A stretch of 64,000 nt of DNA, taken from the NCBI RefSeq assembly GCF_900115825.1, contig NZ_FOXW01000001.1, forward strand, positions 434,001-498,000. The letters run 5' to 3'. A program made the translations under genes and the position numbers. The stretch comes from Desemzia incerta (GTDB lineage: Bacteria; Bacillota; Bacilli; Lactobacillales; Carnobacteriaceae). How positions within the stretch are numbered: position 1 is the stretch's first letter; every line of letters begins with the position of its first letter. The notes under the pieces were generated by a model. That model was not told where the DNA came from. It searched no databases and saw only the letters and a program-made list of their open reading frames with translations. Positions 447 through 60,873 of the stretch are shown here, piece by piece.

Positions 447-743
447 TTTTAAACGAGTTGCAAAAGGCTAAACGCCTTTCTCCACTCTCTGCTTCTGAAA
501 CGCGTTGCGCAAGGCAGACTACACGCTTATAAGCCGGATTCGACCTGTTAGGAAAAACACCTAACTGGTCGACCCCTTCTGATAAGCGGTAGCCTAAACG
601 CCTTGCTCCACGCTCTTATTTTAAAACGAGTTCCGAAAAGCAGCCTATGTGCCTATAAGCCAATTTCAACTGCCAGGTAAAGTACACCTGTCTGCTGAAA
701 TTTTCTTATAGTCAATAGGCTAAACGCTTTTCTCCACTCTCTG
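447..743. repeat. Hairpin repeat array 1 (one short and two long units)
   Basis: Three units stand in tandem: a short one at about 447-492 and long ones at about 496-616 and 618-743. Each opens with an AAACGAG/AAACGCG box and ends with TAAACG, a stem arm, and TCCACTCTCT or TCCACGCTCT. Each long unit folds into one long interrupted hairpin. In the second unit the pairs are GCAAGGC/GCCTTGC, CTAC/GTAG, GCTTAT/ATAAGC, TCGACC/GGTCGA and GTTAGG/CCTAAC. In the third they are GAAAAGC/GCTTTTC, CCTAT/ATAGG, CTATAAG/CTTATAG, AATTTCA/TGAAATT and CAGGT/ACCTG. The stems differ in sequence but keep pairing. The short unit has only the outer stem (AAAGGC/GCCTTT around TAAAC). The array fills the gap between opuAB and opuAC. 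Confidence 0.85.
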
Positions 744-39182: not shown

Positions 39183-39395
39183 ATACGAAAGATATTGATA
39201 TACGATTTTTGTGTTTTACGCGGCAAGTTTATTCACACTGGAGTAGCTATGGGGCTACAAGGATGTATTAGAGGTTAGGGAATACATTGTATAAATTGAA
39301 ATATTGAAAATGAGTAATAGTTTAGTCAGCCTTAAAATATTGAATATTGATTAGTTAGATAGCCTTCTCTTAAATAGAGAAGGCTATCGTTCATT
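39183..39395 (+). ncRNA. Candidate untranslated RNA, not recognised
   Basis: The stretch behind the promoter at 39148-39176 has no reading frame of note. It contains GTAGC/GCTAC (about 39247-39264) and ends in a perfect 12-bp stem (GATAGCCTTCTC/GAGAAGGCTATC, 39358-39388), followed by the weak T-run GTTCATTTT. A second hairpin, AAAAGCACCG/CGGTGCTTTT, lies at 39403-39434 just before the repeat array. The long outer pairing of 6S RNA was not apparent. Expression is unproven. Confidence 0.35.
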
Positions 39396-39402
39396 TTACA
39401 GA

Positions 39403-39434
39403 GAAAAGCACCGGCAGTTTTATGCGGTGCTTTT
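39403..39434. terminator. Hairpin resembling an intrinsic terminator
   Basis: AAAAGCACCG (39405-39414) pairs exactly with CGGTGCTTTT. It may end the candidate RNA to its left, or belong to the edge of the repeat array. Confidence 0.6.
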
Positions 39435-39724
39435 AAAATGTGAAGGAACTCTGGACGCCCTGTTCCACTCTCTGGTTTTAAACGAGTTGCTCGAGGCAGC
39501 TTACACGTCTATAAGCCGAATTCGACCTGTTAGGAAAAGCACCTAACTGTTCGAATCCTTCTTATATCCGGTAAGCTAAACGCCTCGATCCACTCTCTGG
39601 TTTTAAAACGCGCTGCACAAAGCAGTTTACACTGCCATAAGAGCCATAAGAATAGTAGGTAAAAAGCACCTAATTTTCTTATGGCTCTTATGTTCGGTAA
39701 ACTAAACGCTTTGTTTCACGCTCT
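39431..39724. repeat. Hairpin repeat array 2 (one degenerate short and two long units)
   Basis: This has the same make-up as the array at 447-743: a short unit (39431-39474), then long units at about 39476-39599 and 39600-39724. The first long unit pairs CGAGGC/GCCTCG, CTTAC/GTAAG, TATAAG/CTTATA, ATTCGA/TCGAAT and GTTAGG/CCTAAC. The second pairs ACAAAGC/GCTTTGT, TTTAC/GTAAA, an uninterrupted 16-bp CATAAGAGCCATAAGA with TCTTATGGCTCTTATG, and TAGGT/ACCTA. Units share the TTTTAAAACG opening, the loop (G/T)AAAAnGCACCT, CTAAACG and TCCACTCTCTGG. The array ends against the 3' end of the split tRNA gene. Confidence 0.85.
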
Positions 39725-39762
39725 ACGGTCCTAGAGAGGTTCGAACTCCCGACCTAACGTTT

Positions 39763-40574
39763 ATACTGATAGGTAACGTTCTTCTGCAACATGACTTGCT
39801 CAGAATACTTGTTTTCCCCCAGTCCACACCTTGCAGGCGACTTTCATCGCACAAGGCGTTCCATCAATCAGAATTTCGTTGAAGAGAGAAGAACTCTTAT
39901 GAATGTAAAACACATCTCATTTGCGCAAAGGAAAAATGAATCTATGATACTGGAAATAAATGCATTATGCTTCAACGAAATACTCAACTGACTAGCCATC
40001 TTCCCTCCGCTGGTTGTTATCCCAGGTTCCTCGGTACTACACAGCTGCTGCCGCAACTATTCAACAGCCATTATCCTGCTGTTTAGAACCCTCAAATAGG
40101 AGTTGACAGTTCCTAGTTGCTTCCAACGTTCCGTTATTACTAGCTTTGCCATTAAACTTAGGTGCTTTCTATAAATGTTTCAGCGTTTTTGATCCACAAC
40201 CATTCAATCAAAAACTATTAAGGTCAAATCCTTAATAACAGTTTGTGTTTTCCTAGACAGTCCACCGTGCTTTAATTCATCGAGTGAAGAAACATCCGTA
40301 CGTTCGAAAGTTCGTCAGTGTCAAAACACATTCTCACCTTATTTAATTTATAGCCCTCCGACTACTGGGCAGATGCTTTTCGCCGACTTTACCGAACTTT
40401 TGACAATACCCAACTATTTTTAAGTCTTGCCAATCGGAGATCAAGGTATTTCTCAAGCGGTTGACTTGAGTGTGCTTTTTTCATTTTGCACAATATCGTA
40501 ATAACAGTTAAGCCAAGCGGCTCTTACTTTTTATAAACTTTTTCAAGTTTACTTTGTAGTAAAACGTTGCGTAC
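39763..40574 (-). mobile_element. ORF-less group II intron in tRNA-Arg(CCU)
   Basis: The insert is 812 nt on the minus strand and falls between anticodon position 36 and position 37. It starts GTACG (consensus GUGYG) and ends AT (consensus AY). A branch-point-like A lies eight nt from the 3' end. Domain V is at 39859-39826, exactly 34 nt: lower stem ACGCCTTGT/GCAAGGTGT, a two-nt CT bulge, and GCGAT-GAAA-GTCGC at the top; the catalytic triad reads CGC. AGGAAA at 40254-40249 can act as EBS1 for the exon's TTTCCT (IBS1), and the T before it can pair with the first 3' exon base. Several hairpins fill domains I-IV. No reading frame of reverse transcriptase or maturase size exists, so mobility and perhaps splicing depend on a protein from elsewhere. 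Boundaries could shift by one or two bases. Confidence 0.8.
39826..39859 (-). other. Group II intron domain V
   Basis: 34-nt hairpin: nine-pair lower stem with CGC triad, two-nt bulge on the 3' side, five-pair upper stem and GAAA tetraloop. The upper part is the same as in the yeast and organellar-type sequence (GCGATGAAAGTCGC). Confidence 0.85.
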
Positions 40575-40697
40575 AGGAAACGTTTGCTCTATCCAACTGA
40601 GCTATAGGACCACATGGATAAAATTATTTTCTCATGATTCTAAAAAGTTGTCTAGTGATTTTGAGAGAATTATGATGTCAGTCCATTTTACCTTCAC

Positions 40698-60493: not shown

Positions 60494-60873
60494 CTAAAAG
60501 AGATAGCAAATACGCTTTATCACATTAACTTTAATGAAATAAAAAGTTCAGTTAATAACCGCGTGTTGTTAACTGTGTAAATCGAGACGTATGCTTATGG
60601 AGTAAGCTGACGGATTCGGAATAAATTCTACCCCTACACAAATTGTGATTCACCCCAAAAAAGGTGGTTCCCCCATTTTCCTTTTAGGAAATTCAGCAGT
60701 TCAATCTAAGTTATTTAATTTTTTGCGCAACTTTTCTCTAAAACCCTAACATAAATAACAATAACGGGTCAAAATAAACGCATTATTGATGTTTGAGGTA
60801 AATGGAAAGCAAATATAGAGTGTTTTAGTAAATGTTTGATATAATAAATTATGATGATAAAAAGGAGCAGCTT

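Follow-up and report, generated by a model that had tools for sequence, protein, structure and literature searches.

The array of folded repeats that follows a split tRNA-Arg(CCT) gene of Desemzia incerta is, in our judgement likely, a local build-up of a genus-level family of non-coding, strongly folded repeats that belongs to the MITE/REP/BOX class and owes its spread to movement as non-autonomous DNA. The best reading of the family is a MITE/REP/BOX-like repeat with unusually exact, one-way anchoring on stop codons. Its copies are dispersed, they share a folded structure, and they occupy characteristic positions in a fixed orientation. Many bacteria carry small folded repeats. In this family the copies are positioned in one direction only and with a precision of a few bases, and filled and empty orthologous sites are both available, which makes stop-codon targeting directly testable.

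The window (the whole stretch of 64,000 nt that was analyzed) contains two such arrays on its minus strand. The one next to the tRNA, array 2, consists of two full repeat units of 123 nt, unit 1 at 39602..39724 and unit 2, of core subtype A, at 39476..39598, both recognized by covariance-model match and by fold. In the window search, covariance model R1 scored 115.1 bits (E 8e-29) for unit 1 (39724-39602) and 135.0 bits (E 3e-34) for unit 2 (39598-39476), values that are high partly by construction because both units are among the 23 sequences from which the model was built. Measured against dinucleotide shuffles, unit 1 folds at z -8.6 and unit 2 at z -7.8; the array taken whole gives z -11 against shuffles. 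The array described in the first-pass annotation is thus real, both of its long minus-strand hairpins folding far beyond shuffles; the unbroken arm pair reported for one of its units is likewise present, as the inner pair of unit 1, although it extends over 17 bp and not over 16. The core of unit 1 differs from the common subtypes. Its nearest relative is a unit of an array in the congeneric genome G001 (85% identity), and the nearest relatives of unit 2 also reside in G001 (85-87%).

Beyond unit 2, after a gap of 2 nt, a third unit is represented by 18 nt of its head, AGAGAGTGGAACAGGGCG (39456..39473, minus strand, recognized by sequence), a fragment like the one at another site (L003/L109). 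This fragment had been taken for the short unit of a short-long-long order, but as a folded module it does not hold up: the 43-nt stretch from 39473 gives z -0.8, 37 of 200 shuffles fold as well, and the third module had no match to the covariance model in the window search. Nor can the array start at 39431, as had been proposed, since that position falls inside a separate terminator-like hairpin past the array, AAAAGCACCG/CGGTGCTTTT (39404..39434, minus strand, fold z -4.5), and 39431-39455 is outside the repeat family.

At its other end the array adjoins the tRNA discriminator as claimed, the head of unit 1 (39724) being one base (39725) from the discriminator G at 39726. The tRNA is indeed split: ARAGORN finds none in the sequence as it stands, whereas the 5' part (40575..40611) and the 3' part (39726..39762), when joined, yield a tRNA-Arg(CCT) on the minus strand. 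The two exons are separated by a group II intron of 812 nt (39763..40574, minus strand; Rfam RF00029 and RF02004), which sits in the anticodon loop after CCT and is without a long ORF, its longest stop-free stretch being 76 aa. The interrupted gene is the only match of tRNA-Arg(CCT) in the focal genome (G000) at the threshold used; the intron also occurs in G001 (86%) and in G005, from a second genus (79%), and the gene is uninterrupted in other genera. Both G001 and G005 carry the interrupted tRNA-Arg(CCT) without the array, and the family is found elsewhere, so that the array is not a feature fixed at this site in all relatives and never seen at another. At the tRNA-Arg locus of G001 (L205, 2366-2960), about 500 bases lie between the tRNA and a duplicate of its 3' end, ATCTCTCTAGGGCCGT, an arrangement such as is left by an element integrated at a tRNA.

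A position directly behind a tRNA had suggested that the array might take part in tRNA 3' processing or act as a termination signal, and the units could more generally be perceived as ordinary intrinsic terminators, because they form stable hairpins past the ends of genes, with GUUUU coming next, and because a study of low-GC Firmicutes describes stable stem-loops near stops as a general class there (PMC1590033). We consider it highly improbable that they are terminators, be it in general or of this tRNA in particular. A unit greatly exceeds a terminator in length and carries only about four T, some arrays lie in short spacings between genes of the same direction, and array 2 is followed by the hairpin at 39404-39434, just as T-rich hairpins follow other arrays (for example at L101, L108 and L164). 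Because this separate terminator-like hairpin lies past it, array 2 is probably a trailer of the tRNA and not its terminator, and the hairpin itself, which is absent from the consensus-scan listing, is probably the terminator of the tRNA transcript. Upstream of the array at L097 there is a terminator hairpin, AAAAGAGTGGAACA...TGTTCCACTCTTTT, with an arm resembling the repeat head; as in that case, the repeat may give rise to terminators. Just past array 2 and its hairpin, Rfam matches the BsrC small RNA (62.3 bits, 39213-39300, minus strand), and at 60578-60708, also on the minus strand, it places a c-di-AMP riboswitch (ydaO/yuaA leader, RF00379).

The family unit, about 123 nt long, is one long hairpin. 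Its alignment comprises 23 units of two species and was seeded from DNA matches within the same genome. At E<=1e-3 the covariance model has 56 matches in G000, corresponding to some 50 distinct units without opposite-strand shadows, and at least 147 in G001, a few such shadows included; the dispersal that had been surmised from two loci therefore extends to many other places in both genomes. Five genomes of two further genera give 1-8 weak matches, most of which represent another family related to the first, AGAGTGGGACAAAAAGCGTTTAG ... GGAGCACGTTTTAGA, that is present in the focal genus too. This second family was seen at L086, L088 (6931), L089-L091, L094, L100, L104 (5962), L111 and L062-L084 in the form AGAGYGGGAMAA...GCACGTTTACGA or ACGCGTTTAAAA; the sequence past its tail is also conserved, it is shared with another genus, and a convergent gene often has its stop 50-95 nt from the far side of the repeat. 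The arrays have no match in Rfam 15 at the gathering score, and no description of the family was found in the literature on repeats as judged by titles and abstract openings. There was likewise no match in plasmid and phage records, a collection from which records close to this genome may be missing, and none when a neighboring protein was compared with viral contigs.

Pairing within the hairpin is kept by compensatory changes. Pairing is seen in 91.9% of cells, double changes occur at 29 of the 35 pairs, the covariation score is 0.561 versus 0.219 in shuffles, and none of 500 shuffles reaches any of five measures; when the alignment is slid, the paired share drops to 33-43%. Across 139 units of family 1, the conserved parts are the head AGAG, a bulge region GCG-TTTAG / CTGC and the tail CTCGTTTA (as RNA, CUCGUUUA), and the head begins AGAGAG.... 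The bulge consists of four bases, GUUU, on one arm only (GCGUUUAG opposite CUGC). By comparison, the core varies, with at least three subtypes, the hairpin tip is free and can be rewritten, and the base of the hairpin offers a terminal inverted repeat of only 4 bp, GAGY/RCUC, in which A-U to C-G covariation is seen. A one-sided bulge conserved amid freely rewritten stems points to a recognition feature. Stem mismatches are G.T in 179 cases and A.C in 138 (p 0.02), a near-equality that we take as an indication, and not as a measurement, that pairing is probably kept at the DNA level with at most a weak RNA preference. Selection on sense RNA alone should favor G.U strongly; near-equal numbers point less to an RNA-only constraint than to pairing at the Watson-Crick level, such as DNA hairpins or copying from arm to arm would produce.

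We examined 106 arrays taken from the stretches around copies, with the G001 loci coming from the better-scoring matches. Arrays comprise 1-6 units, head to tail, with spacers of 0-3 nt and one exception. By the pattern of the first 12 bases, 79 of the 106 belong to family 1. Fifty-one of the 79 have an ORF of at least 100 codons whose stop codon ends at -8..+26 of the head, gene ends being ORF-based and not annotated. Random positions within the same loci do so in 1.8% of cases (p 3e-68, a value that assumes independent arrays, counts sites common to both species twice and, with control positions spread over whole loci including genes, overstates the case relative to a control in gene-free DNA). 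All 51 arrays at stops are in sense orientation and none is antisense, a one-sidedness that holds regardless of the random-position control. Among exact offsets, +2 (T|AG) and +1 (TA|A) occur most often, meaning that the repeat itself supplies the end of the stop codon (A or AG). Among the remaining 28 family-1 arrays, several turn out on inspection to open with a degenerate unit located at a stop, two lie behind tRNAs (array 2 and one behind a tRNA-Arg(CCG) in G001), two, one per species, lie behind what is seemingly the same T-box terminator, and roughly ten are beside divergent genes. By eye, the repeat at L109 (3001) and L132 (1501), the same locus in both species, directly follows the T-run of an apparent T-box leader terminator.

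When C-termini are compared between the two Desemzia genomes, which constitute our whole sample of the genus, both filled/filled and filled/empty pairs are encountered. Of 20 G000 sites for which G001 has an ortholog, roughly 13 are filled there as well; in the reverse direction, most of the G001 sites tested are empty in G000. Empty orthologous sites have the same protein end and usually TAA, and many filled sites have a TAG derived from the element, as exemplified by filled ATGAGA-TAG-AGAGTGG versus empty ATGAGA-TAATAGAGC. The first-pass annotation had pointed to empty sites and target duplications in relatives as informative; the former were found, but the 3' flanks at empty sites have mostly diverged and none allows a duplication to be read, with T or TA standing before many heads and TA occurring in many tails.

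Placement of this kind could conceivably also arise if the hairpins were primarily functional 3'-UTR RNA elements kept at particular genes, with mobility being secondary; past a stop they might cause ribosomes to stall or to be released, obstruct 3' exonucleases or be cut by RNase III. The strict sense orientation (51:0) only a few bases from the stop would be expected of such elements, and many of the same genes are occupied in both species, which fits selection for function there as well. There is also some precedent, with passages of PMC12306157 reporting that E. coli REPs located no more than 15 nt from a stop stall ribosomes, and passages of PMC10969869 that ERICs at gene 3' ends in Y. 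enterocolitica change transcript levels via RNase E. On the other hand, G.U barely exceeds A.C (179:138) when selection on sense RNA should clearly favor it, many orthologous genes end in the same C-terminus without the element, and units at shared sites are often not closest relatives. We therefore regard a primary 3'-UTR function as unlikely.

Shared sites frequently hold units that are more closely related to others than to one another (exceptions are L092/L121, L105/L118 and L109/L132), a pattern compatible with older mixed arrays having lost different units, or with replacement. The median identity of adjacent units is 0.52, versus 0.50 for random units, and 6 of 67 adjacent pairs reach an identity of 0.9 or more. 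Since neighbors resemble each other no more than random units do, arrays seem to gather different members singly and not as a block, and tandem duplication was rejected as their main source.

This bears directly on the proposal that a three-unit short-long-long block moves or is amplified as a whole, which was prompted by the similar order of the two window arrays. Array 1 spans 447-742 on the minus strand and was delineated by covariance-model matches: unit 1 (620..742, subtype B) begins 4 bases past the stop codon that ends the sense gene upstream of it, unit 2 (494..616, subtype A) follows, and a short 44-nt unit (447..490, E 1.5e-10), in which head and tail are joined and the core is missing, matches the model end to end (1-123). 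Both arrays thus do possess two long units and a short piece, but a true short unit exists only in array 1, and its counterpart in array 2 is the 18-nt fragment. As had been noted, the stem sequences differ, the paired units of the two arrays being 59% and 82% identical; the two arrays rank 266th in 2176 unit-pair comparisons, and in either array unit 1 has its nearest relative in the other species, not in its counterpart. Two similar consecutive units are common to few array pairs (5 of 2176 at 0.8 or above), and a shared unit order is to be expected anyway because two-unit arrays are common (29 of 106). With unit identities and shared neighbors speaking against block movement, the three-unit reading is largely refuted, and we give it next to no credence.

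Returning to the build-up of single mobile units as the preferred reading, we envisage the following course of events. Units would spread as non-autonomous mobile DNA recognized as a folded single strand, to which the one-sided bulge would give a direction, and would insert just inside or behind a stop codon, often TAA, or, less often, land behind a tRNA or a T-box terminator. Later units would join earlier ones and others would be lost, leaving mixed arrays that vary between species. Such arrays would be transcribed as 3' UTR (at array 2, as tRNA trailer) upstream of the normal terminator, and, in what is the weakest step of the model, a hairpin a few bases past the stop may alter ribosome release or mRNA stability. 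A plain TA target has no polarity and cannot explain the strict direction, which calls either for a directional recognizer or for selection at the RNA level, and the one-sided bulge is an obvious candidate for what the former reads. In its most specific and rather doubtful form, the model has an enzyme read the folded strand via the GUUU bulge and insert single units sense-wise into stops, remaking TAA to TAG and leaving the host protein unchanged. If this were true, any gene would offer a selfish element a harmless place to settle behind it.

A directional reading of a folded strand inevitably brings integron attC sites to mind. They share with our units an imperfect hairpin, one-sided extrahelical bases, a variable tip and, on the attC side, strand-specific recognition; according to passages of PMC2727003, the extrahelical bases and the unpaired spacer govern strand choice and recombination. 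It could thus be imagined that the units are site-specific cassettes of folded single strand, inserted singly into a stop-like site by a recombinase that reads the bulge in an attC-like manner, and the conserved one-sided bulge, the variable tip, the strand-specific orientation and the heterogeneous head-to-tail arrays would all agree with that. However, the head AGAGAG... and the tail CTCGTTTA are without an obvious attC R box pair (AAC/GTT core), no attC-type recombination boxes are seen at unit ends, and the neighboring genes look like housekeeping genes and not like cassettes, which makes this a quite improbable origin.

Being short, non-coding, strongly base-paired and dispersed, the copies of about 123 nt do have the general properties of MITEs, and the repeat probably owes its dispersal to being a small mobile element. 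RUP of S. pneumoniae, ERIC/RU-1 (127 bp) of enterobacteria and Correia/NEMIS of Neisseria are alike in their size of 100-160 bp, their long hairpin and their non-autonomous nature, and passages of PMC2229807 ascribe to them a short terminal inverted repeat with TA at the ends. They differ from the present family in that its units are placed on stops in strict sense orientation and that profiles of the IS630-type (DDE_3) and Y1 (Y1_Tnp) transposases have no match in the G000 and G001 draft genomes, so that no partner of these two types with matching ends was found. With no target duplication readable and no such partner found, the family cannot be filed among these elements. The BOX elements of S. 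pneumoniae (boxA-boxB-boxC) resemble it as dispersed, modular and folded repeats of a low-GC Firmicute with a variable number of modules; passages of PMC3049150 add that BOX length differs between strains and that BOX is over-represented between convergent genes. In BOX, however, distinct end modules surround a repeated boxB, whereas here every unit has its own head and tail and arrays are repeats of whole units, a module layout that sets the family apart; moreover, the described passages on BOX contain no exact one-way stop-codon anchoring such as is present here. From the REP/BIME elements with their RAYT, the family is distinguished by its 123-nt length and other ends and by the missing Y1_Tnp, REPs being 20-40 bp long and mostly carrying GTAG or CGTC tags according to PMC3733652, and by its head-to-tail arrays, orientation alternating in BIMEs. 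What the two have in common is that REPs, too, are extragenic palindromes, some of which lie near stop codons: in one analysis, described in passages of PMC12306157, about 11% of E. coli REPs were within 15 nt of a stop.
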